Part shown: positions 6,621 to 17,230 of the stretch, piece by piece
Layout: every line of letters begins with the position of its first letter
Numbering within the stretch: the stretch's first letter is position 1
NCBI GenBank assembly: GCA_900197615.1
Contig: FZLR01000007.1
Location: forward strand, 1-59,429
DNA from: Rhodospirillaceae bacterium Spongia-Bin9
Lineage (GTDB): Bacteria; Pseudomonadota; Alphaproteobacteria; Bin65
DNA: 59,429 bases
Reading direction: 5' to 3'
Made by a program: the position numbers and the translations under genes
The notes under the pieces: generated by a model
Seen by the model: only the letters and a program-made list of their open reading frames with translations
Database searches by the model: none
Told to the model about the DNA's origin: nothing

Positions 6621-7634
6621 TCAGCGGGCCAGTTGGTAGACGACCCGGAAATCGAACCCATGCGCTTCGGCCAGATAGACGGGAAGGTCGCGAAATCCGC
6701 CGTCGCTGCGGACGCCGGCGGCGATCCGGCGGTTGCCCGTTGCCTGCACGGCGAGGCGGGCTATGCCTTCGTAGATGGACTGGCCGAGATCGTTCAGCAT
6801 CGGCGCCCGCTCGGCAAACATGGCATGGTAGCGCTCGCGGAAAGCGCCGTTGCGCCGCGTATCGAGCGCCGCGAAATAGCCGGCGCTGACGAATACTCCG
6901 TCGGTCGCCGCCGCGCCCATGGCCAGCAGCATGTTTTCCTCGATGGCGCAAGAGAAGCGCAGGACCGAGCGCGCGAGTCCGGCAGCGTGGAAGGCGCGAT
7001 TGAAGAGCACCGAATCCTGGCCGATCAGGGACAGCAGCACCGCATCGGGCCGGCGGGTTTCGATCCGGTCGAGAATGGTGTCGAAGCGGCGGATGTCGGT
7101 GGCGCTCTCGTCGAAATCGACATAGTCGCTGCCGACGACCTCGCGGCCCTGCCGGGCCATCGCCCGCGCCGCCAGGGCATGGGACACCCGCGGCCAGACA
7201 TAGTCGTTGCCGACGAAATACCAGCGCCGCAGCCGGTAGCGCGCGCTCAGCCGGTTGAGCGCCGGCAGCAGCTGGCGCTCCGGCGTCACCCCGAGGCAGC
7301 AGACATTGTCCGGCGCGCTGCCTTCGTGCAGCGGCGTGTAGATGTAGGGAACGCGCCGGCCGACCGCAGCCGCCAGGGCGTCGCGCACGTCGCTGGTGTG
7401 CATCCCGACGATCGAATCGACCCGTCGCCCGGCGATCAGTTCCGCCGCGCGCCGGGCGACGGCCTCCGGATTCGAGCCGGCATCGACGAAGCGCAGCCGG
7501 AACACCGTATCGTCGGTCGCCGCGGCGTTGATTTCGCTGCAGGCCAGTTCGGCGCTGGCGCGGCAGGACGGGCCCCAGATGCCCGCCGGGCCGCTCGTGG
7601 GTATGAAAACGCCGATCCGGTGCGTGCTCGCCAT
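6621..7634 (-). CDS. AmiC-like ligand-binding protein without signal peptide
   Basis: This 337-residue protein has the Peripla_BP_5/6 fold: IGVFIPTSGPAGIWGPS at the start, then EINAA and a central YFVGNDYVWPR hinge segment. The N-terminus MASTHRIGVF goes straight into the first beta strand, so no secretion signal is present. In Pseudomonas a similar cytosolic protein, AmiC, senses amides and controls the antiterminator AmiR. No AmiR-like ANTAR gene is visible here, but a MarR regulator diverges from it. It is the first gene of the minus-strand run leading to flotillin and the amide/urea transporter. Role as a ligand sensor is inferred; a leaderless pseudo-transport protein is the alternative. 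Confidence 0.75.
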   Translation of the reverse strand: MASTHRIGVFIPTSGPAGIWGPSCRASAELACSEINAAATDDTVFRLRFVDAGSNPEAVARRAAELIAGRRVDSIVGMHTSDVRDALAAAVGRRVPYIYTPLHEGSAPDNVCCLGVTPERQLLPALNRLSARYRLRRWYFVGNDYVWPRVSHALAARAMARQGREVVGSDYVDFDESATDIRRFDTILDRIETRRPDAVLLSLIGQDSVLFNRAFHAAGLARSVLRFSCAIEENMLLAMGAAATDGVFVSAGYFAALDTRRNGAFRERYHAMFAERAPMLNDLGQSIYEGIARLAVQATGNRRIAAGVRSDGGFRDLPVYLAEAHGFDFRVVYQLAR

Positions 7635-7869: not shown

Positions 7870-8319
7870 ATGGCCTTTCCCGGTAGCCTCGCCGACATCC
7901 TGATGCGGAGCGGCCAGTCCGTCGCCCAGGATCTGGACGGCCTGCTCCGGCCCCTCGGCCTGTCCCTCGTGCAGTGGCGGGTGCTGGACAGCCTGAGCGA
8001 CGGCGCCGGCCGCACCATGAGCGGCCTGTCCGCGCGGTCGGCCATCCAGATGCCGGCCCTGTCGAAACTGGTCGACCGGATGGTCGTCCGCTCGCTGGTC
8101 CTGCGCAAGCAGAGCGAAACCGACCAGCGCGTGATCATCGTCATGGCATCCGATCTGGGCCTGGACGTCTACCGCAACAGCCTGCCGGCAATCCGGGCCT
8201 ACGAGGCGCGGCTGGCCGAGCGCCTGGCCGGCTTCGACCTGCCGCGACTCGACAGGTTCGCGCTGGACCCGGACGGCAAAGCCGCGGCGGCCGCCGGCAA
8301 GGCGGTTCGGCTCAATTGA
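7870..8319 (+). CDS. MarR-family transcriptional regulator
   Basis: This 149-residue protein has the MarR winged-helix layout. LGLSLVQWRVLDSLSDG, then SALSAR-like helix-turn-helix residues (GLSARSAIQMPALSKLVDRM) and the wing LRKQSETDQRVIIV are clear. The ATG at 7870 is chosen because the protein then begins with MAFPGSLADILMRSG, which fits family N-termini; an in-frame GTG at 7861 is possible. It is transcribed divergently from the AmiC-like/flotillin/ABC run across a repeat-rich 235-bp region, so it likely controls that run and itself. The ligand is unknown. Confidence 0.82.
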   Translation: MAFPGSLADILMRSGQSVAQDLDGLLRPLGLSLVQWRVLDSLSDGAGRTMSGLSARSAIQMPALSKLVDRMVVRSLVLRKQSETDQRVIIVMASDLGLDVYRNSLPAIRAYEARLAERLAGFDLPRLDRFALDPDGKAAAAAGKAVRLN

Positions 8320-8346: not shown

Positions 8347-9141
8347 TCAGGTCAGGAACTTGGTGAAGCCGCCGTCGACGTTCCAGCACGCGCCGGTCAC
8401 GAAGCTCGCCCGCTTCGACGCGAGGAATGCGACGACGGCCGCGACCTCGTCCGGCCGGCCGTAGCGATCGATCAGGAGGAGTTGACCGGCGAGGTTGCTG
8501 AACACCTCGTCGACATTCTCCCCGGCCGTGCCGACGAAGCTGTCCTCCGCGAGACGTTCCCACAACGGGGTGTGGATGAGGGCCGGGTTGACCGCGTTCA
8601 CCCGGATGCCGTCGCCCGCCAGGTCCTGGGCCAGGGTCTTGGTGATTGCGAGCATCGCCGCCTTGGCCGAGTTGTAGTCCGCCATGCCGCCGAGTCCGCT
8701 GTGTCCGCTCACCGAGGCGACGTTGACGATGGAGCCGCCGCCCTGCTCGCGGATCAGGGGCACCGCGGCGCGCGTCGCCCGGACCGCGCTCCAGAGGTTG
8801 ATGTCGTAGGTCTGCTCCCAGACCTCGTCCGGATCCTCGATGGTCCGGCCGACCGCGGCGTCGCCGGCGTTGTTCACGAGAATGTCCAGCCGCCCGAAAT
8901 GCGCAGCGGTGTCGTTGACAAAGCGTTCGACATCCTCGCGCTTGCTCATGTCGGCGACGCACGAGAACACTTCGCCGCCGGCTGCCTCGATGGCCGCCCC
9001 GGTCTCTTCGAGCGGGCCCTCGCGGCGGGCGCAGATCGAAACTTTCGCGCCTTCCTGCGCAAACTCCATCGCAATCGCCTGGCCGAGGCCGAGGCTCGAG
9101 GCCGTCACGGCGGCCACCTTGCCGTTCAATCCGAGATCCAT
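8347..9141 (-). CDS. SDR-family NAD(P)-dependent oxidoreductase
   Basis: This is a classical short-chain dehydrogenase of 264 residues. The N-terminal cofactor motif is TASSLGLG, a variant of TGxxxGIG in which the first glycine is alanine. NNAG, the catalytic Ser region VASVSG and the catalytic YNSAK are present, and the C-terminal half closes with the usual [11 protein letters not shown]. It is the last gene of a four-gene minus-strand run with formamidase, lyase and ureohydrolase. The substrate cannot be read from sequence. The altered glycine motif may affect cofactor affinity but is seen in some related enzymes. Confidence 0.85.
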
Positions 9142-9220
9142 TGTCCGTTCCTTTTCGCAGAGTTGTCCGTTGGTCGTATGTCGGCGGCAGCGCCGGGTGG
9201 CGCCTGAAACGAGCGCGCCC

Positions 9221-10213
9221 CTAGAAGGCGGGGCTCAACCGATGCTTGGGATATTCCGCCCCGACGACGTGCTGAATCGTGATCGCGCGCACCATCTGGT
9301 AGGTCCGGATGCGGAACGCAGGATCGCAGGACATGCGGATGTAGGTGTCCTGCGGCTTGACGCCGTAATCCTCGCTCAGCCAGTCGATCATGTTGGCGCA
9401 GGCGTCGTAGACGGCATGCTCCATCGGCAGGTTGATGCCGACGGCGACGATGCTCTCCGGCTTGACGATTCGAACCGTGGGCTGGCGCCTGTTCTTGATG
9501 ACGGTGCAGTTGAGCTGCACGGTCGCGCGCGTCTCGTCGGCGATCCCGGTGAACTCCGTATCGCCCTGTCCGCCGTGGATGTCTCCGATGTAGAGCAATC
9601 CGCCCTTGTGGTAGGAATTGAGCAGGATCGTGTGCCCGGGCGCCACGTCCCGGCAGTCGATGTTGCCGCCGAACGGCCCCTGCCCCAGCAGCGAGGTGAA
9701 GACCTCGCGTTCGGGAGCGGTCGCCAGCGTGCCGCAGAAGGGCTCCAGGTCCCAGGTCAGCTTGTCCGAATACTTGCCCTTGCCGTCTCGGGTGTGGCCG
9801 CTCGGGCCGGGAAGGTGCTCGATGACCTGCACCCGCGGTTCCGCGCACTGGCCGCCCCATCGCGTCGACTCGCCGTAGGGCCCGATGCCGGGGAGGATGC
9901 CCGAGAAGCCGTAGCGCCACGGGTCTATGATTTCGAGGTTCACGGCGAGGACGTCGCCGGCTTCGCAGCCTTCGACATAGATCGGGCCGACGACCGGGTT
10001 GTACTTGGGAGGCCAGGCCGCGTTCAGCGCATCGACATGCGCATCGCCCACGAACTGGTGCACCTTCGGGTTGTCGCTATCGTCCTCGATGAGGCCCGAC
10101 AGCGCATCGTCGGTCTCGACCTGGAACGACTCCTCCTGCTCGACGCGAAGCACGGGCTCGTCCCGTGCATCGAAGGCGTATTTGGTCACTTCGCCACGCT
10201 TGATGATCTGCAT
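9221..10213 (-). CDS. Acetamidase/formamidase (FmdA/AmdA family)
   Basis: This is a cytoplasmic amidohydrolase of the FmdA_AmdA family, about 330 residues. It would hydrolyse formamide or acetamide to the acid and ammonia. Characteristic stretches are [25 protein letters not shown] and [10 protein letters not shown], followed by [12 protein letters not shown], the metal/active-site face of the family. The ATG at 10213 is chosen because an AAGGAGG ribosome-binding site sits 8 nt upstream; a longer frame exists but has no such site. It lies 79 bp before the SDR and follows the lyase gene. Together with the amide-type ABC system it supports amide use as a nitrogen source. Confidence 0.85.
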
Positions 10214-10398
10214 CGATCGGCCTCCTTGGGTTCGATAAAAGGCCGGGTCGTCCTCCGGCCGGCACGTCGCGTGCCCTTTGCGCGCCAAACATTACGATAC
10301 AGGGCGCATCGGAGAAAACACTACCGTGCCCGGAGAATCTCGGGCGTGCGGCTGCCCCGCATCCACACGCCGCTGGCCGGGGCAGGCTTCGGCCGGGA

Positions 10399-11232
10399 CT
10401 ACCGACGCATGAAGCCGGCGATATCCGGCGTCGACATCGCTGTGTCGACATAGGAGAAGGCGCCCTTCTCCAGCGCTTCGATCGCCGCCGCGGCCATGCC
10501 GGTCATCGCCGCGCGGTACAGCGATGTTGCCAGGCTGATGCGCTTTGCCCCGGCGGCTGCGGCATCGGCCACGGGAAACGATCTGCCCCCGACGCCGACC
10601 ATGAAGTTGACCGGTTTCGACACCGCGCCGCACACCGCGCGCAGCGCCGCGAGGTCCGGCAGCGCCGGGGCCATCAGGACATCGGCCCCGGCACGTTCGT
10701 AGGCCTGCAGCCGCGCAATGACCTCGTCGAGGTCCGGAAGGCCGCGGATGAAACATTCGCTCCGCGCAGTCAGCGTGAAGCGAAAACCGACCGACCGTGC
10801 AGCTTCGGCGGCCGCGGCAATGCGTTCCGCGGCCTGACTGCGGTCATAGAACGGGCGGTCCGGGTCGCCCCTGTAGTCCTCGATCGAACAGCCGACCAGC
10901 CCCGCTTCGGCCGCCCGAATTACGGTCGTCGCGGCGGCCTCGGGCTCGTGGCCGAAGCCGTTTTCCAGATCGCCCGAAACCGGCAGGTCGACCGCGTCCG
11001 CGACTGCGCGCGAATGCTCCAGGGCCTCCTCGCGCGTGACCTCGCCGTCGCACCGGCCCAGCGTGCCGGCAAAGCCGCCGCTCGTCGTCGCAAGCGCCTC
11101 GAACCCCAGACCGGCCAGGATGCGGGCCGAGCCGGCATCGAACGCGTTGGCGAGGATGAAAGGTTCCGGGCCCCGGTGCAGGGCATGGAACCGCTCGGCC
11201 TTTTCGGCCTGGGTGGGCGGGGCGTCGGCCAT
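10399..11232 (-). CDS. Isocitrate lyase/PEP mutase superfamily protein
   Basis: This 277-residue TIM-barrel enzyme belongs to the PEP-mutase-like branch. It shows ILANAFDAGSARILAGLGF, SGDLENGFG, GCSIEDYRGD and the LTARSE strand. The isocitrate-lyase KKCGH catalytic loop is absent, so a true isocitrate lyase is unlikely; carboxyphosphonoenolpyruvate mutase, oxaloacetate decarboxylase or a C-C lyase are options. The ATG at 11232 has a GGAG site upstream and is preferred to the GTG at 11250. It sits between the ureohydrolase and formamidase genes in a single-direction run. The actual substrate is unknown. Confidence 0.8.
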   Translation of the reverse strand: MADAPPTQAEKAERFHALHRGPEPFILANAFDAGSARILAGLGFEALATTSGGFAGTLGRCDGEVTREEALEHSRAVADAVDLPVSGDLENGFGHEPEAAATTVIRAAEAGLVGCSIEDYRGDPDRPFYDRSQAAERIAAAAEAARSVGFRFTLTARSECFIRGLPDLDEVIARLQAYERAGADVLMAPALPDLAALRAVCGAVSKPVNFMVGVGGRSFPVADAAAAGAKRISLATSLYRAAMTGMAAAAIEALEKGAFSYVDTAMSTPDIAGFMRR

Positions 11233-11358
11233 GGGCAGGGCACTCTCCACAAGATTGAACCGGTGCGAGGGTGGGGGGCCGATACCCGTCTGTCAATGGA
11301 CCGCGCCGAACCGGTATCCCAGGCCGATGCGCGCGCCGCACCGGCTGTTCCGGCCGGG

Positions 11359-12363
11359 TCAGCCGCGCGCCGCCGCGCGGGCCTCGCGGTGCCGCTCCCA
11401 GCGCGGCTGGCGGCAGATGTTGCCGAGGAACTCCAGCACCGTGTGCGCGGCGAGGTAGGAGGTGACGCCGGTTCTCACATCCAGGGTCGGGTTGACCTCT
11501 ACGAGATCGAGCCCCACCACATTGCAGTGCTCGGCGATGGCGGCGAGCGTGTCGCGCAGCTCGGCATAGCTCATCCCGTTCGGCTCGGCCGAGACGCATC
11601 CCGGTATCAGCGGCAGGTCGAGCACGTCGATGTCGATGCTCACATAGGTCCGCGCATTGTGCGGGACGACTTCGGCGACGCCCTTCGGGCCGATATCGTG
11701 GAACTCGCCCATGGTCATCACCCGGTTGCCGTCGTCGATCGAGTCCCGGATTTCCGATTCGGCGCTCCGGAGGCTGCGGATCCCGACCTGGGTGAGGCTC
11801 AGCACATGGGGCAACGGGGCAATGTTGCGGAATGGATGGACATTGGTGAAACGGAGATCGTGGATGAACGGTGCATAGTCGATATGGGCGTCGAAGTGGA
11901 TGACGTGCAGCGGTTCTTCGTCCTCGAACCCCCTGACGACCGGGTAGGTCACCGAGTGGTCGCCGCCGAGCATGATCGGCATCGCCCCGGTGGCAAGAAC
12001 CGCCTTGGTCAGGTCGGTCGCGTTGTCGAACGTGCTATTCACGTCGGTCGGCCATACGTCGACGTCGCCGACATCGGCGATGGTCCCGTTCGCCATTTCG
12101 TGGGCGAGATAGGTGCGCCCGGTCTCCGGGTCGTAGAACCCGGCGTCGGGGGCGGCGAACCGCAACGAATGCTCGCGAATCGAGCGCGGACCCATGCGCG
12201 AGCCGGCGAGAAACGGCGAACCTTCGTCGAAGGGAACCCCATAGACTGCGATGTCGGCGTCGAGAGCGTCGAGGTCCGTTTCGATCGGCGCACGCAGGAA
12301 CGAAGGAATGCCGACGAACGGGCGGCCGAGAGTAATTCCGGAACGTCTGCTGCTCGATGTCAT
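11359..12363 (-). CDS. Ureohydrolase (agmatinase/arginase/formiminoglutamase superfamily)
   Basis: This is a binuclear-manganese ureohydrolase of 334 residues. All six metal ligands are visible: His136 in GGDHS, Asp158, His160 and Asp162 in DAHID, and Asp244 and Asp246 in SIDIDVLD. The family usually follows the last motif with a proline (LDP), here leucine (LDL). The ATG at 12363 has a GGAGG site 10 nt upstream. It leads a four-gene operon with lyase, formamidase and SDR, and faces an amino acid ABC transporter across a shared promoter region. The product may be urea (agmatinase or guanidino-acid type) or formamide (formimino type); the formamidase two genes away favours asking about the latter. 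Specificity is inference. Confidence 0.86.
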   Translation of the reverse strand: MTSSSRRSGITLGRPFVGIPSFLRAPIETDLDALDADIAVYGVPFDEGSPFLAGSRMGPRSIREHSLRFAAPDAGFYDPETGRTYLAHEMANGTIADVGDVDVWPTDVNSTFDNATDLTKAVLATGAMPIMLGGDHSVTYPVVRGFEDEEPLHVIHFDAHIDYAPFIHDLRFTNVHPFRNIAPLPHVLSLTQVGIRSLRSAESEIRDSIDDGNRVMTMGEFHDIGPKGVAEVVPHNARTYVSIDIDVLDLPLIPGCVSAEPNGMSYAELRDTLAAIAEHCNVVGLDLVEVNPTLDVRTGVTSYLAAHTVLEFLGNICRQPRWERHREARAAARG

Positions 12364-12955
12364 GGCCGGACCTCCAGATTTGCTGGCCGAATCTTACCGG
12401 ATAGCGATGCCTGACCGTTCCGTCGAAACGGTTTCGACGAGAACCGCCTGAGCCGACCCGTTTGGGATCGCGCGGGACTTGCCGGGCGCCTGCCTCGACG
12501 ATGCGCCCGGATCTCAGACCGCCTGACGGCCGTTCCGATCCGGGCAGGAGGAGCGTTCGAAACGCACTGTCGGGATCCGGAAAACGAAGCCCTTCGACGC
12601 AGCGAAGGAGCATACTCTCGTCGCATCCGCCCGGGCCGAACGGTTTCCGGACGGCGTCGATACGAACGATCGGGGAATTCGCCGTCGGGTTCGCAGTTGC
12701 GACCGGTTCGTACATGAGGGAAACGATGTTGCGGCGCCCGCCTGCGCCCGGTCGCCTCCTCGTGCGTTGCGACCGGCGCTCCCGATGGCGAACGAACGAA
12801 AAAACCCCTGCTGGTAACCATCCTGACTCCGACGGGCGCGCCGATCCTTGCGGACAGGATCAGTCATCGACTTCCAGCCCAATTGCAAATTCACTATGCT
12901 TTCATATTGTGATATACCATTGCATTCTGTGCAATAACCATGATGGAGGATAAAG
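12364..12955. other. Divergent intergenic region, 592 bp
   Basis: No gene can be supported here, although GC-rich frames are open on both strands. The part next to the binding-protein gene (12880-12950) turns AT-rich and should hold its promoter, including the 12919-12935 palindrome. The part next to the ureohydrolase gene holds no recognisable element apart from that gene's Shine-Dalgarno site. The middle (12440-12800) could be decayed coding DNA but resembles nothing I recognise. Confidence 0.6.
12919..12935. promoter_or_regulatory. Palindromic operator candidate upstream of amino acid ABC operon
   Basis: ATTGCA-TTCTG-TGCAAT is a perfect 6-5-6 inverted repeat 20 bp before the binding-protein start codon, inside an AT-rich promoter-like stretch. 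Its position could allow repression, for example by the XRE-cupin regulator encoded at the far end of the operon. The assignment to that regulator is inference. Confidence 0.5.
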
Positions 12956-13813
12956 ATGTTTGCCTCATTGAACCGAGCGTCGGCGGTCGCATTTGGGGCG
13001 ACCATCGCAGCGTGCCTTGCCTTCTCCGGCGGACCCGCCAATGCGGATCTCCTGGCCGAGATCAAGAAACGGGGAGAGTTCATCGTTGGAACCGAGGCGC
13101 GGTTCCCGCCGTTCGAGTTCGTCAAGGACGGCAAGATCGTCGGCTACTCGACGGATATCATGGTGCACGTCATGAAGGCGCTGCCGGGGGTCAAGCTGAA
13201 GCGGCTCGATCTTCCCTGGCAGGGCATTCTTCCCGGCCTGGCCGCGTCCAAGTTCGACTATGTCGTCACCTCCGTGACCGTTACCAAGGAGCGCTATGCG
13301 AAATACGCGCTCAGCCTGCCGATCGCCGACGCGACCATGGCGCTGGTGAAACGCAAGGGCGACGCTTCGATCAAGGCGCCGAAAGATATCGCCGGTCACA
13401 TGGTCGGCTCGCAGGCCGGCTCGGCGCAGCTGCAGGCCCTTCAGGCTTTCGCGAAGGGGCTCAAGAGCGCGGGCAAGGGAGTCAAAGGAATCAAGACCTA
13501 CGTCGATTTCAACGAGGCCTTCGCCGACCTGGCGGCAGGGCGGATCAGCGCCGTTTGCAACAGCCTGCCGAACCTGCTCGAACTTGTCCGAAAGCGGCCG
13601 GATACCTTCGAGATGGTTCTGCCGACTTTCGGTCCCAAGAAGTATTTCAGCTGGGCCGGCCGCAAGGATGCCGAAAGCGCTTCGCTCGTCGCCTTCATGG
13701 ACAAGCAGATCTCTGCGCTGAACAAGTCGGGTGTACTGACCGCGCTGCAAAAGAAATGGTTCGGCGGGCCTATGGACCTGCCGGCCGACAAGTTGCCGGT
13801 GCCGAAAAACTAG
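12956..13813 (+). CDS. Polar amino acid ABC transporter substrate-binding protein (family 3)
   Basis: This is a periplasmic solute-binding protein of 285 residues. A Sec signal covers about residues 1-30, with a hydrophobic core and an ANA cleavage site. The mature protein starts at DLLAEIKKRGEFIVGTEARFPPFEF, of which the EARFPPFEF part is the SBP_bac_3 ligand-loop signature. The ATG follows a TGGAGGA ribosome-binding site. It is the first gene of a four-gene plus-strand transporter operon, separated from the permeases by a strong hairpin. The family takes polar or basic amino acids; the divergent ureohydrolase suggests an arginine-, histidine- or guanidino-like ligand, which is inference. 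Confidence 0.88.
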   Translation: MFASLNRASAVAFGATIAACLAFSGGPANADLLAEIKKRGEFIVGTEARFPPFEFVKDGKIVGYSTDIMVHVMKALPGVKLKRLDLPWQGILPGLAASKFDYVVTSVTVTKERYAKYALSLPIADATMALVKRKGDASIKAPKDIAGHMVGSQAGSAQLQALQAFAKGLKSAGKGVKGIKTYVDFNEAFADLAAGRISAVCNSLPNLLELVRKRPDTFEMVLPTFGPKKYFSWAGRKDAESASLVAFMDKQISALNKSGVLTALQKKWFGGPMDLPADKLPVPKN

Positions 13814-13820
13814 GCGCCTG

Positions 13821-13864
13821 CGAGCGACCGCCCGATCGCCGCCGGCGGCCGGGCGGTCGACTCG
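13821..13864 (+). promoter_or_regulatory. Intercistronic stem-loop between binding protein and permease genes
   Basis: GACCGCCCG (13826-13834) pairs perfectly with CGGGCGGTC (13850-13858), an inner GCCGCC/GGCGGC extends the stem, and an outer CGAG/CTCG pair lengthens it with one bulge. No T-run follows, so it is more likely an mRNA-stabilising or partial-termination structure that keeps the binding protein in excess than a full terminator. Confidence 0.7.
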
Positions 13865-13884
13865 ACGATTGACGGGTCACGTCG

Positions 13885-14544
13885 GTGGATTTTCTCGGCG
13901 TTCTCTCTGACCACTATAACGCTTTCCTCGCTGGCGCGGTAATGACTGCCGCGATCTCGGCGGTCTGCATTGCTGCGGGCATGATCCTGGGGCTCTGGCT
14001 CAGTTTCGGTCTGATCTCGCAGAACCGGGCGATCCGGCGGGCTTCGGCTGCCTACCGAAGCTTTTGGCGGGGGACGCCGATCCTGGTGCAACTCCTGATC
14101 GTCTTTTACCTGCTGCCGACGATCGGGGTGGATGTGCCGCCGATCGCGGCGGCGACGATCGCGCTGGCCATGAATACCGCGGCGTTTCAGGCCGAGATTT
14201 TCCGGGGCGGCCTCCTGTCCATCCCGCCCGGCCAGGTCGAGGCCGCACGCATGCTCGGGATCGGTATCCTGTCTATCAGGGTCAGAATCCTGATTCCGCA
14301 GATGATGCGTCTGGTTCTGCCGGCGCTCATCAACGAGACCATCAGCATCCTCAAGAACTCGTCGCTGATCTCGGTGATCGCGGTGACCGAACTCATGCGC
14401 ACCAGCCAGCACGTAGTCTCCGTCACTCACCGGCCGCTGGAAGCCTACACGATCGCGGCCGTCATCTACCTCGCCATGAATTTGGTCCTGGCCCGTGCCG
14501 GGGCCTATTTCGAGCGGCGCTACGCCGTCGCGGCGGCGCGCTAG
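13885..14544 (+). CDS. Polar amino acid ABC transporter permease (HisM/GlnP family)
   Basis: This is an inner-membrane permease of 219 residues with a GTG start. It carries the family hallmark [20 protein letters not shown] and the cytoplasmic EAA loop, which reads [20 protein letters not shown], followed by [17 protein letters not shown]. About five transmembrane segments are visible. It pairs with the second permease 18 bp downstream to form the translocation pore. Clear family member, substrate inferred from the operon. Confidence 0.88.
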
Positions 14545-14562
14545 CCGGCCCCGGGGAAAGCC

Positions 14563-15219
14563 GTGTCGTTCGATATCGACATCGTGTTGCGCTACGGCCC
14601 GCTGTTGCTGTCGGGATTATGGACGACGGTATATATCTGCGCGCTGGCATCGCTTCTGGCCGTCGCCGCAGGTCTTGCGGTTGCGCTGCTCTACAGCCTG
14701 CCGTTCCACCCCGTGAAGCTCTTGTGCCGGGCCTATATCGAGGTCATGCGCGGGACCCCGATCCTGATCCTGCTGTTCATATTGTACTATGGCGGCCCCT
14801 CGATCGGTCTGACCCTGGATGCCGAACCGGTCGGGATCGTCGGCCTCGGTTTGTATGGCGGCGGCTATTTCGCCGAAATCTTCAGGGCCGGGTTCCAATC
14901 GATACCGCCCGGGCAGATCGAAGCCGCACGCATGCTCGGCATCCCGCGCCGGATGATCGTCGCCCGCATTCAGATCCCGCAGATGCTGACGCTGATCATC
15001 CCGCCATCGACCAATCAGGTGATAATTCTGGTCAAGGAATCGGCCTTGTTGTCGATCATCACGGTCGCCGAATTGACGAAAAACACGACGCAGATGGTCA
15101 ACGAGACTTTCGCCGTGATCGAGCCCTATGTGGCAGTTGCCCTGCTCTATTGGCTGATCATAGAGGGTATCGCGTTTGCCGGCGGAGTCCTGGAACGCCG
15201 GTTCGGCCGCGCATCGTGA
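14563..15219 (+). CDS. Polar amino acid ABC transporter permease (HisQ/GlnP family)
   Basis: This is the second permease, 218 residues, GTG start. It has [19 protein letters not shown] near residue 65 and the EAA loop [19 protein letters not shown], then [22 protein letters not shown]. It resembles the first permease, as expected of a heterodimeric HisQM-type pair. Its stop codon overlaps a GTG (GTGA) that is in frame with the downstream ATPase, which suggests translational coupling. Confidence 0.88.
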
Positions 15220-15242
15220 GCGACGAAGGGGCAAGTGGCGCC

Positions 15243-16022
15243 ATGGAAAGCAAACCCGTGGTTCTGGTCGAGAACCTGCACAAGCGGTTCGATGCGGCGC
15301 ATGTCCTGAAAGGAATCGACCTTGCGGTGGACAGTTCGCGGGTGGTCTGCGTCATCGGCCCGTCCGGTTCCGGCAAGAGCACCCTTCTGCGCTGCATGGC
15401 GTTTCTCGACCGGTACGACGAGGGCCGGGTGTATATCGAAGGCCGGCTGCTGGGCTACCGCGAGGTCGATGGCAAACGGACGCCCGACAGCGACCGCAAC
15501 ATCGACAGCGTCCGCAGCGTCATCGGCATGGTCTTCCAGCACTACAACCTCTGGCCCCATAAGACAGCGCTCGGCAACGTGACCGAAGCGTTGCGCGTGG
15601 TGAAGAAGCTTGGCAAAGCCGAGGCTGAGGCGATCGGCATGGAGATGCTGGCCAAGGTCGGGGTGGACGACAAGGCCCACGACTACCCGGCCCAGCTCTC
15701 TGGCGGACAGCAGCAGCGCACTGCGATCGCCCGGGCCCTGGCGATCCGCCCGCACGTGATGTATTTCGACGAGCCGACGTCGGCGCTGGATCCGGAACTC
15801 GTCGGCGAGGTGCTTCAGGTGATGCAGGAACTGGCGAGCGACGGCATGACCATGGTCGTCGTCACCCACGAAATGGGATTCGCCGCCCACGTTGCCGACG
15901 AAGTCGTGTTCATGGACGGGGGCGAGGTCATCGAGCGCGGCCCCCCGGACGACATCTTCAAGCGGCCCCGAAGCGAACGTCTGCGGGAGTTCCTCGATAC
16001 CTGGCGGTCGCGCACAATCTGA
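15243..16022 (+). CDS. Polar amino acid ABC transporter ATP-binding protein (GlnQ/HisP family)
   Basis: This cytoplasmic ATPase of 259 residues energises the upstream permease pair. Walker [11 protein letters not shown]-loop [11 protein letters not shown], signature LSGGQQQR and Walker [15 protein letters not shown] are intact, and the H-loop VTHEMGFA closes the domain. It has the HisP-type insertion ([19 protein letters not shown]) seen in basic amino acid transporters. The ATG at 15243 is preferred by family length; the in-frame GTG at 15216 overlapping the permease stop is an alternative giving nine extra residues. A G-rich repeat begins right after the stop, and a collapsed copy of parts of this gene lies at 17132-17187. 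Confidence 0.9.
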
Positions 16023-16027
16023 CGATC

Positions 16028-16071
16028 GGGATTGGGCGGAATTGGGCGGGAATGGGCAGGATCGGGCGGGG
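16028..16071 (+). repeat. G-rich repeat, potential G-quadruplex, after ABC ATPase stop
   Basis: Seven runs of at least three G lie within 44 bp (starting at 16028, 16034, 16044, 16048, 16054, 16064 and 16068), separated by 1-7 nt. The basic unit is about 10 bp (variants of ATTGGGCGGA). On the transcript this could fold as an RNA G-quadruplex at the 3' end of the transporter mRNA. Confidence 0.65.
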
Positions 16072-16202
16072 TGCCGCGCGGAAGCGACGCCGAGCGCAGG
16101 TTAAACAAATCCTCGAACCCCTGGCCGAATGGAGAGCTTGCGCGCCCTAACCGCCCCTATCGGCCGATCCGCTTCGAGTGCCGGTGCACTCCGGACGCTT
16201 CG

Positions 16203-16790
16203 CTAAAAGGTGGGAGGCGTGTTTATCCAGAGTACGCGAGCAGCCGTACTTCCGTTGTTGGCAAATGAATGTGTCAGTTCAGAACGAAAGACGAATGAGT
16301 CGCCCGCCTCCAAGAGATAAGACACGTTCTCAATCGTAAGGAATAATGACCCCTCCATTACAAAACCGAACTCCTCTCCGGAATGCTGAATTTCTCCGTT
16401 GCTTCCGCCGCCCGGGGGAATGATGTACATATCGGCCTGAAGCAACCTGCCCTTTTTTGCAGGCACAAGCTGTTCCAATCGCATCCGGTCGCCGTCGGCT
16501 TCATCGCCGTCGACATGAAGCACATTCCTCTTGTTCGCCCGGGTGACGGTTTCACTCTCTCCGGACCCGAAAATGTCGCTGATACTCAAGCCCAGCGCGA
16601 CTGCAATCTTGTGCAATGTGCTCAAGGAGGGCGTCGTCCGGTCGTTCTCGATTTTCGACAACAGGCTCTCCGAGCACCCGACGAGCTTTGCCATGTCTCT
16701 CAGGGTGAGGCCCTTCACCAGACGCCAGTGACGGATCTGTCTGCCGAGCCTGATGCTCCTGTCTTCATCTTGACTCGAATCGATATTCAT
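16203..16790 (-). CDS. XRE-family regulator with C-terminal cupin domain
   Basis: This 195-residue repressor-type protein has an N-terminal helix-turn-helix (about residues 15-70: GRQIRHWRLVKGLTLRDMA, then GCSESLLSKIENDRTTPSLSTL). A C-terminal cupin-2 beta barrel follows (IIPPGGGSNGEIQHSGEEFGFVMEGSL, then AGDSFVFRSELTH). Such proteins (PuuR/SutR type) respond to small amino-acid or amine ligands. The ATG at 16790 follows a GGAGAA site; an upstream open extension is not credible. It converges on the amino acid ABC operon and likely regulates it. The gene is visibly richer in A and T than its flanks, and ATPase-derived repeats lie on both sides, hinting at rearrangement. Confidence 0.85.
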   Translation of the reverse strand: MNIDSSQDEDRSIRLGRQIRHWRLVKGLTLRDMAKLVGCSESLLSKIENDRTTPSLSTLHKIAVALGLSISDIFGSGESETVTRANKRNVLHVDGDEADGDRMRLEQLVPAKKGRLLQADMYIIPPGGGSNGEIQHSGEEFGFVMEGSLFLTIENVSYLLEAGDSFVFRSELTHSFANNGSTAARVLWINTPPTF

Positions 16791-16993
16791 TATGCGTTCT
16801 CCTGTCGGCGAGTCCGGGGTCGCTGGAGCAGCGAGGAAAGTTCGGCTCCGTTGGCGATGCCCAATCCCGCTCGGACGCGGCAGCTCGTTCGACTCTTGAA
16901 ATATACCCTCAACGACAATTCGCGATGTCTCACTAACCCGGATATCCCGCGAAAAATGGATCGCCTGACTCCATAAGTGGCGACAATTCAATT

Positions 16994-17012
16994 GGTTGTG
17001 TTGAATATAACC
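16994..17012. promoter_or_regulatory. Imperfect dyad, operator candidate of XRE-cupin gene
   Basis: The 19-bp dyad GGTTnTnTTnAAnAnAACC matches its complement at 14 of 18 paired positions. It is about 200 bp upstream of the regulator start. Its use as an operator is inference. Confidence 0.35.
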
Positions 17013-17131
17013 AAGAGCCAAACGATTGCGGAATGTAACCACAAAGCGTTCGCCCTTTCAAACTGTCGCGAGCGGCAGTGCAGATTCCTGCCGGACCTGG
17101 AGCGCCGGCCGAATCGGTGGAAGGGTATCGG

Positions 17132-17187
17132 CGCACCGCGATCGCCCGGGCCCTGCCGCTCGCGCACAATCTGACGATCGGGCGGGG
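17132..17187 (+). pseudogene. Collapsed remnant of the amino acid ABC ATPase gene 3' part
   Basis: Positions 17132-17155 match 15717-15740 (the QRTAIARAL codons of the ATPase) at 23 of 24 bases. After four bases, 17160-17182 is identical to 16008-16030, the ATPase 3' end with its stop codon. It then continues as GATCGGGCGGGG, matching 16060-16071. The pieces are in the same order as in the intact gene, so this is a copy with two internal deletions. It lies on the other side of the XRE-cupin gene, 1,152 bp from the original 3' end. Confidence 0.7.
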
Positions 17188-17230
17188 CTCGGGTCGCCCG
17201 GCTGTCATGCAAGGCGCGGTCGTCTCCACC

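Follow-up and report, generated by a model that had tools for sequence, protein, structure and literature searches.

A candidate mobile cassette pairing an Asn163 ureohydrolase with an amino-acid importer in Rhodospirillaceae bacterium Spongia-Bin9

We describe a 5.6-kb gene cassette in Rhodospirillaceae bacterium Spongia-Bin9, found at 11357..16965 of a 59,429-nucleotide stretch (hereafter the window) that comprises positions 1 to 59,429 of contig FZLR01000007.1 in GenBank assembly GCA_900197615.1. The cassette joins a ureohydrolase of the arginase superfamily to a polar-amino-acid ATP-binding cassette (ABC) importer and an XRE-cupin regulator. Its boundaries recur across loci, it is inserted beside unrelated genes, its enzyme has Asn at the position of the catalytic His, and the substrate-binding protein (SBP) of its importer has lost the Asp expected to hold an alpha-ammonium group. 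We propose, with a probability of roughly 0.4, that this is a mobile catabolic cassette for an imported N-formimino or amidine amino acid, served by a formamide-releasing ureohydrolase; both substrate and product are inferred. The importer would take up a carboxylate without a free alpha-ammonium group, likeliest an amino acid with an N-formimino or comparable amidine group; hydrolysis of its C-N bond by the di-metal ureohydrolase would then yield the amino acid and formamide, and the XRE-cupin regulator would control the cassette.

Cassette content, boundaries and spread

Gene families were assigned with Pfam models, and function-level labels were judged against curated equivalog cut-offs (NCBIfam/TIGR). 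The ureohydrolase (334 residues, 11359..12363, minus strand) scores 215.3 bits against PF00491, whose cut-off is 22, and has all six metal ligands. Facing it on the plus strand is the ABC operon (12956-16022), a complete importer set in which every member exceeds its cut-off: an SBP3 polar-amino-acid binding protein (12956..13813; PF00497, 94.7 bits), two permeases (13885..14544 and 14563..15219; PF00528, 64.8 and 79.3 bits) and an ATPase (15243..16022; PF00005, 103.1 bits), the start of which is placed at the ATG before SKPVVL (15216 according to the gene caller). The probable cassette regulator, a PuuR-like XRE-cupin protein (16203..16790, minus strand), exceeds the cut-offs of PF07883 and PF13560.

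A scan of species genomes for relatives of the ureohydrolase returned 40 loci at 55-96% identity, with at least 3 kb of flank upstream in 33 and downstream in 31. A matching importer SBP lies no more than 2.5 kb from the ureohydrolase in ten of the 40 (six with the window's divergent arrangement, L022 co-directional, and three from Aurantimonadaceae), and the pairing occurs also in Chelatococcus (L073) and in the congener G006. Seven loci compared at the DNA level (L014, L015, L016, L018, L022, L023 and L054) share a left homology edge at 11349-11359, no more than 10 nt from the stop codon of the ureohydrolase gene. On the right, homology ends at 16953 in L016, at 16965 in L133 (the G006 locus) and at 16820 in L018; in L023 it stops at 16029, past the ATPase gene, and in L014, L015 and L022 it reaches contig ends or nearly so. 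The regulator is kept at 89-91% in L016 and L018. G006 has the ABC and regulator genes and, at a contig end, an 80-base piece of the ureohydrolase. The congener G001 (L070) lacks window positions 11313-17221 altogether; there the PEP-mutase gene and the gltD-gltB flanks enclose about 1 kb. The unit is thus a ureohydrolase with an importer, often accompanied by the XRE-cupin regulator; in some relatives the enzyme stands by itself.

No clear mobile-element ends were found at the cassette edges, and the left edge (11240-11420) contains no internal repeat. The right edge has one 15-nt inverted pair, and a 31-nt pair with members at 11260-11290 and 17120-17150 is only 74% complementary. Past the right edge, at 17131-17182, lie two 31-nt near-copies (90-94%) of stretches from the ATPase gene region, which may be a scar of recombination. 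One metagenome-assembled genome (MAG), bin52, carries two ureohydrolase copies (L014 and L015) with an SBP gene beside each; in the L015 enzyme, Ala replaces the catalytic Glu and position 236 is Pro, as though the protein were decaying or changed.

Ureohydrolases 87-93% identical to that of the window occur in MAGs named as Alpha-, Gamma- and Deltaproteobacteria. Two of the Gamma members (L019, L020) sit on chromosome-level assemblies of 5.7 Mb, so that binning error is unlikely to explain the cross-class copies. Among remoter members, identity is 68-73% in other Proteobacteria, 55-65% in Chloroflexi and 61% in Aurantimonadaceae. The cassette has apparently been passed between unrelated bacteria, many of which we suspect, from isolate names, to be sponge-associated.

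Asparagine at the catalytic histidine position

Residue columns are numbered as in SpeB. The residue table has 33 rows for the window clade; nine of the 40 loci lie outside it, two as near-duplicates (L034, L035) and seven as fragments, frameshifted or partly matched sequences (L025, L043, L048, L049, L050, L051, L053). The urea-releasing references were SpeB, GbuA, GpuA, PAH, GdmH and RocF; metformin hydrolases are not among the rows. The first metal position of 4myn was disregarded, the His there being the product of an engineered N114H substitution.

All six metal ligands are present in each of the 33 clade rows. The window enzyme has Asn163, Cys242, Ser244, Leu236 and Ala155. Column 163 is Asn throughout the clade (33/33) and in six of six enzymes from Deinococcota, and it is Ser in four and Asn in one of five references for HutG, the formimidoylglutamase of histidine degradation, never His. 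All six urea-releasing references have His at this column, as does guanidinase 9FEK; PMC8125230 reports that SpeB H163F retains 3-5% activity. Elsewhere the column is Leu in 5/5 rows of ureoH2, a second ureohydrolase of related clusters, Gln in 4/4 of the L055 group and Gly or Ala in L056/57. The residue pattern supports a chemistry unlike classic guanidine hydrolysis, in a clade that is yet not HutG-like at every site.

The first-pass annotation had pointed to a Leu in place of Pro after the last metal motif, SIDIDVLDLPLIPG, as a possible mark of unusual specificity. Motif and substitution are both there, and column 236 is Leu, Met or Ile in 32 of 33 clade rows. As a sole mark of specificity the substitution was ruled out, because Pro is also lost in 5/5 HutG references and in the guanidine hydrolase GdmH, and because one clade member has Pro. 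Cys242 was likewise dropped as a candidate guanidinium contact: the contact named in PMC8049259 is T244, which corresponds to Ser in the clade.

Trees were built from 64 rows (tree 1, midpoint root) and from 54 rows (tree 2, with five more Deinococcota enzymes), long branches being flagged in both. The near-duplicate paralogs L059, L061 and L062 and the 1WOG segment, which equals L075, were left out of both, and 15 further rows, including RocF and the T. cruzi FIGase, were left out of tree 2 for speed or because of long branches. The 33-row window clade has support of 100/100 in tree 1, where it and the D. radiodurans enzyme fall in a superclade of 48 rows (98/98) that excludes both the HutG and the urea-releasing references. 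Tree 2 repeats the superclade at 98/98, with an unsure position for Deinococcota inside it (80/71) and with B. subtilis HutG apart from the other HutGs. Neither tree places the window ureohydrolase firmly in a urea-releasing clade, the outcome that had been named in advance as telling against a formamide-releasing enzyme. Solved guanidinobutyrase, guanidinopropionase, proclavaminate amidinohydrolase, SpeB and guanidinases (3NIO, 3NIP, 1GQ6, 7LOL, 7ESR, 9FEK) share the fold and the metal set with it, but they keep His163 and form a separate clade in the two trees. Fold comparison proved uninformative: the AlphaFold model (predicted local distance difference test score 84.7) has 1wog as its best solved match at Z 35.8, and 9fek and 7esr tie with it within Z 1.

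Deinococcota enzymes within histidine operons

Among PDB entries, 1WOG is also the best sequence match to the window ureohydrolase (183 bits). Its sequence is encoded in D. radiodurans (L075; 292/292 residues compared) by a gene placed between hutU and hutI-hutH, one further gene being in the interval. In D. proteolyticus, D. radiophilus, Deinococcus QL22 and Deinococcus NW-56 the relative is likewise a hut-operon gene, and in Thermus thermophilus it adjoins the operon, so that all six Deinococcota regions read (L075, L106-L110; Deinococcus and Thermus plasmids) place the enzyme in or beside hutU-hutI-hutH, and these six stretches carry no annotated HutF or further HutG. The window enzyme and 1WOG share Asn163, Ser244 and the superclade; they differ in that they are 38% identical, that 1WOG belongs to a hut operon without an ABC importer beside it, and that 1WOG keeps Pro236 and Thr242.

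PMC8125230 describes this enzyme, DrAGM, as the exception with Asn where others have His163, and PMC7370999 calls the evidence for its ligand highly doubtful. Because of the operon context, Asn163, an agmatinase claim made without kinetics and this doubtful ligand, the D. radiodurans enzyme is probably the formimidoylglutamase of its hut operon, mis-named as an agmatinase. Among openly licensed PMC papers we found none on the window clade or on re-assigning 1WOG, which does not imply absence from print.

An importer without the alpha-ammonium aspartate

PAAT binding proteins hold the carboxylate of the ligand with an Arg and its alpha-ammonium group with an Asp. The window SBP keeps the carboxylate-site Arg and has Asn/Ser at the Asp position (CNSLP). 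The same combination, Arg kept and Asp replaced, recurs without exception among the ureohydrolase-linked SBPs compared (window, L015, L016, L018, L022, L023, L112, L045-L047, L073, L056/L113, L057/L114, L074, L102 and L132). AncQR, ArtJ and GlnPQ have the Asp, as do two other SBPs of the same clusters (L073, L046). Eighteen further loci were fetched as controls (L112-L129), of which 15 gave rows, three of them cassette-type, and L126-L128 gave none; the SBP columns of L125 and L022_2991 were unreadable. Of the 12 remaining control SBPs, nine, from the genus, have the Asp, a count that comes to about three because six are mutual orthologs (84-94% identical) and L123 and L124 are 71% alike. To judge by the residues, loss of the Asp would fit ligands with a substituted nitrogen or with no alpha-amino group.

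The same replacement is seen in three related SBPs, of which one neighbours hutC in R. johnstonii and two are encoded by Klebsiella pneumoniae plasmids. These two (L130, L131) are 51-54% identical to the window SBP and lie beside an M24 enzyme, or beside an M20 enzyme with DUF1989 and cupin genes; 336 Klebsiella plasmid records have some SBP match, weak ones included.

Related ureohydrolase-importer clusters

Clusters in Chelatococcus, Antarcticirhabdus, Aurantimonas and Jiella encode a ureohydrolase 61-63% identical to that of the window together with the same kind of importer, and differ in having ureoH2, which bears the HutG Arg155, and DUF1989 genes, all absent from the window cassette. 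The Chelatococcus cluster (L073) consists of a LysR regulator, ureoH2, the importer, the clade enzyme and a single DUF1989 gene (12970-13572). Those of Aurantimonadaceae (L045-L047) have the same set but four DUF1989-type genes, located at 10.9-13.6 kb (in a row in L045) and identified by Pfam in L045 and by clustering in L046 and L047. In four of the five ureoH2 rows, ureoH2 shares an operon with the clade enzyme; column 155 is Arg in 5/5 ureoH2, 2/2 L056/57 and 5/5 HutG rows.

DUF1989 genes recurrently follow ureohydrolase-ABC clusters, as also at L056 (10509-11105, there followed by an Amidohydro_1 enzyme and an amidase) and at L057 (5.3-5.9 kb); according to PMC11271267, the family includes carboxyguanidine deiminase. 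On an Aminobacter plasmid (L102, 4977-9197) the HutG-Arg-bearing ureoH2 comes after the importer and before aspartate ammonia-lyase and asparaginase, hinting that it yields aspartate and at a possible pathway for N-formimino- or N-amidino-aspartate.

Neighbouring genes outside the cassette

Downstream of the ureohydrolase on the minus strand lie three genes of a resident block: a phosphoenolpyruvate (PEP) mutase/isocitrate-lyase-like gene (10399..11250; PF13714, 235.4 bits; a 91% copy lies near FmdA in G001), an FmdA/AmdA-family amidase-like gene (9221..10213; PF03069, 80.8 bits, cut-off 27) and a short-chain dehydrogenase/reductase (SDR; 8347..9141; PF13561, 198.9 bits) that adjoins FmdA in G001, G003 and G006. 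The first-pass annotation had described a six-ligand ureohydrolase, a PEP-mutase-like gene and an SDR running in one direction and facing an amino-acid ABC operon, all of which Pfam and the residue tables confirm. Its "FmdA-type formamidase" stands as a superfamily-level label only, the formamidase model NF045496 scoring it at 38.4 bits where 500 are needed; the closest solved relative, 5UBU, is itself a "putative acetamidase/formamidase".

The view that ureohydrolase and formamidase form one operon is ruled out by synteny. Gaps of 108 nt and 185 nt separate ureohydrolase from PEP-mutase and PEP-mutase from FmdA. FmdA is beside the ureohydrolase in none of the 40 other loci, PEP-mutase matches occur in one (25% identity, 4 kb off), and SDR matches, seen in 14, are all distant (21-36% identity and 1.3 kb or more away), in keeping with a family this common. 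Being absent or distant at other ureohydrolase loci, and with homology ending at the ureohydrolase stop codon, PEP-mutase, FmdA and SDR are bystanders. The SDR-FmdA pair is conserved in G001, G003 and G006 (SDR 92-96%, FmdA 97-98%); G001 has SDR, FmdA and PEP-mutase together as in the window and no ureohydrolase ortholog, and in G003 and G006 the pair and the ureohydrolase are on different contigs. Counts of terminator-like sites (8 observed, 7.2 expected) and promoter-like sites (2 against 1.7) were uninformative. The coupling that underlay the earlier inference of a formimino or amidino substrate, as opposed to an arginine derivative, is refuted by synteny; the inference itself now leans on Asn163, the trees, the hut context of 1WOG and the SBP change.

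The SDR-FmdA pair changes its hydrolase neighbours: two congeners have a creatinase/prolidase-type M24 gene next to it (L068 6557-7771; L069, 7.7 kb), and G001 has an amidase-like gene there (L070, 6.6-8.0 kb). In the window it lies beside a UrtA/AmiC-like binding protein gene (6621-7634; signal peptide not apparent by eye) and a gene that looks MarR-like by eye (7870-8319), possibly serving amide sensing for the block.

Discussion

A formamide-releasing cassette enzyme is a tentative reading, and a number of observations count against it. The window enzyme shares with HutG (1XFK, 3M1R, T. cruzi, haloarchaea) the fold and the lack of His163, and B. subtilis HutG has both Asn163 and Cys242; it differs in lying separately in the trees, in lacking the HutG Arg155 (Ala in 20 clade rows, Ser in 10, Thr in two, Arg in one) and in its score against the HutG model TIGR01227, 129.4 bits where 229.15 are required. 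The clade's invariant Ser244 (33/33, and 6/6 in Deinococcota) is unlike the Ala or Cys of HutG; this column is Thr in five of the six urea-releasing references and Trp in GdmH. Three of three enzymes from Rhizobium, Ensifer and Leisingera, inside the same superclade, have His163, among them L074 with the same kind of importer. The Asp is also missing in two control SBPs (L117, L118), and the SBP change would fit guanidino acids as well as N-formimino amino acids. No matching SBP lies nearby in 30 of the 40 loci, some of which are too short to tell; a 93% ureohydrolase ortholog in G003 lies on a 19.9-kb stretch without an importer, and L023 lacks the regulator. According to PMC8125230, DrAGM is the one solved putative agmatinase with reported agmatinase activity, although without kinetic or specificity data. 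Hut genes are absent beside the ureohydrolase in the window and in the annotated Chelatococcus locus, and none was recognised beside clade members, whose neighbours are incompletely annotated. Finally, the host's own genome encodes HutU, HutC, HutI, HutF (552.3 bits against 413), N-formylglutamate deformylase (314.5 against 278.75) and HutH (cut by the end of the stretch) together at G000:C117. With HutF and the deformylase encoded, formiminoglutamate from histidine needs no further enzyme.

If the formimino reading is right, the presence of this HutF route makes an imported or different formimino acid the more likely substrate. The window enzyme as the host's missing HutG was ruled out, given that route, the missed TIGR01227 cut-off and the absent Arg155; HutG-model matches at E<=1e-60 occur in one of 115 genomes of the class, and not in the host. 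Confidence in the formimino reading is tempered by SBP controls that are less independent than their number suggests, and by the lack of cassette parts in G003 and L023.

The strongest competitor, and a quite possible one, is that the importer brings in a guanidino carboxylate from which the enzyme releases urea, Asn replacing the catalytic His. Guanidino acids, which have no alpha-ammonium group, would suit the SBP, the Rhizobium sister enzyme with an importer keeps His163, the structural model is as near to guanidinases 9fek and 7esr (Z 35.6-35.8) as to 1wog, and the superfamily has known guanidino acid hydrolases, human GDAH (PMC9772407) being an example. Against it stand the retention of His163 in every urea-releasing reference and its absence from the whole clade, together with the position of the clade outside the urea-releasing group in both trees. 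Residue, context and importer evidence put the formimino reading slightly ahead.

An agmatinase feeding polyamine metabolism seems unlikely. Several relatives are annotated as speB or agmatinase, the D. radiodurans enzyme is so reported in PMC8125230, and the cassette regulator scores 98.4 bits against the PuuR model, under its cut-off of 211; but the agmatinase model TIGR01230 gives the window enzyme 141.6 bits against 174.3, Asn replaces His163, Ala, Ser, Thr or Arg replaces Tyr155, and the SBP keeps its carboxylate-site Arg although agmatine has no carboxylate. Most improbable of all is a coupled pathway in which formamide released by the ureohydrolase is broken down by the nearby FmdA. The two genes are near each other and co-directional in this one genome, against which stand the 40 other loci without FmdA, the congeners in which SDR-FmdA is found without the ureohydrolase or on another contig, the end of homology at the stop codon and the poor formamidase score.

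Taken as a whole, a transferable scavenging cassette for N-formimino or amidine compounds, with an importer independent of the alpha-ammonium group and a new formamide-releasing subfamily, combined with 1WOG as a formimidoylglutamase and with many speB genes of the superclade not being agmatinases, is a proposal we regard as rather doubtful in its entirety. If true, the large "agmatinase" annotation would divide according to whether the catalytic His is present, and a reference crystal structure would be re-assigned. Amidine-bearing amino acids would then be an unrecognised nitrogen source in Pseudomonadota and Chloroflexota at least, drawn upon through a gene set spread by recent transfer.

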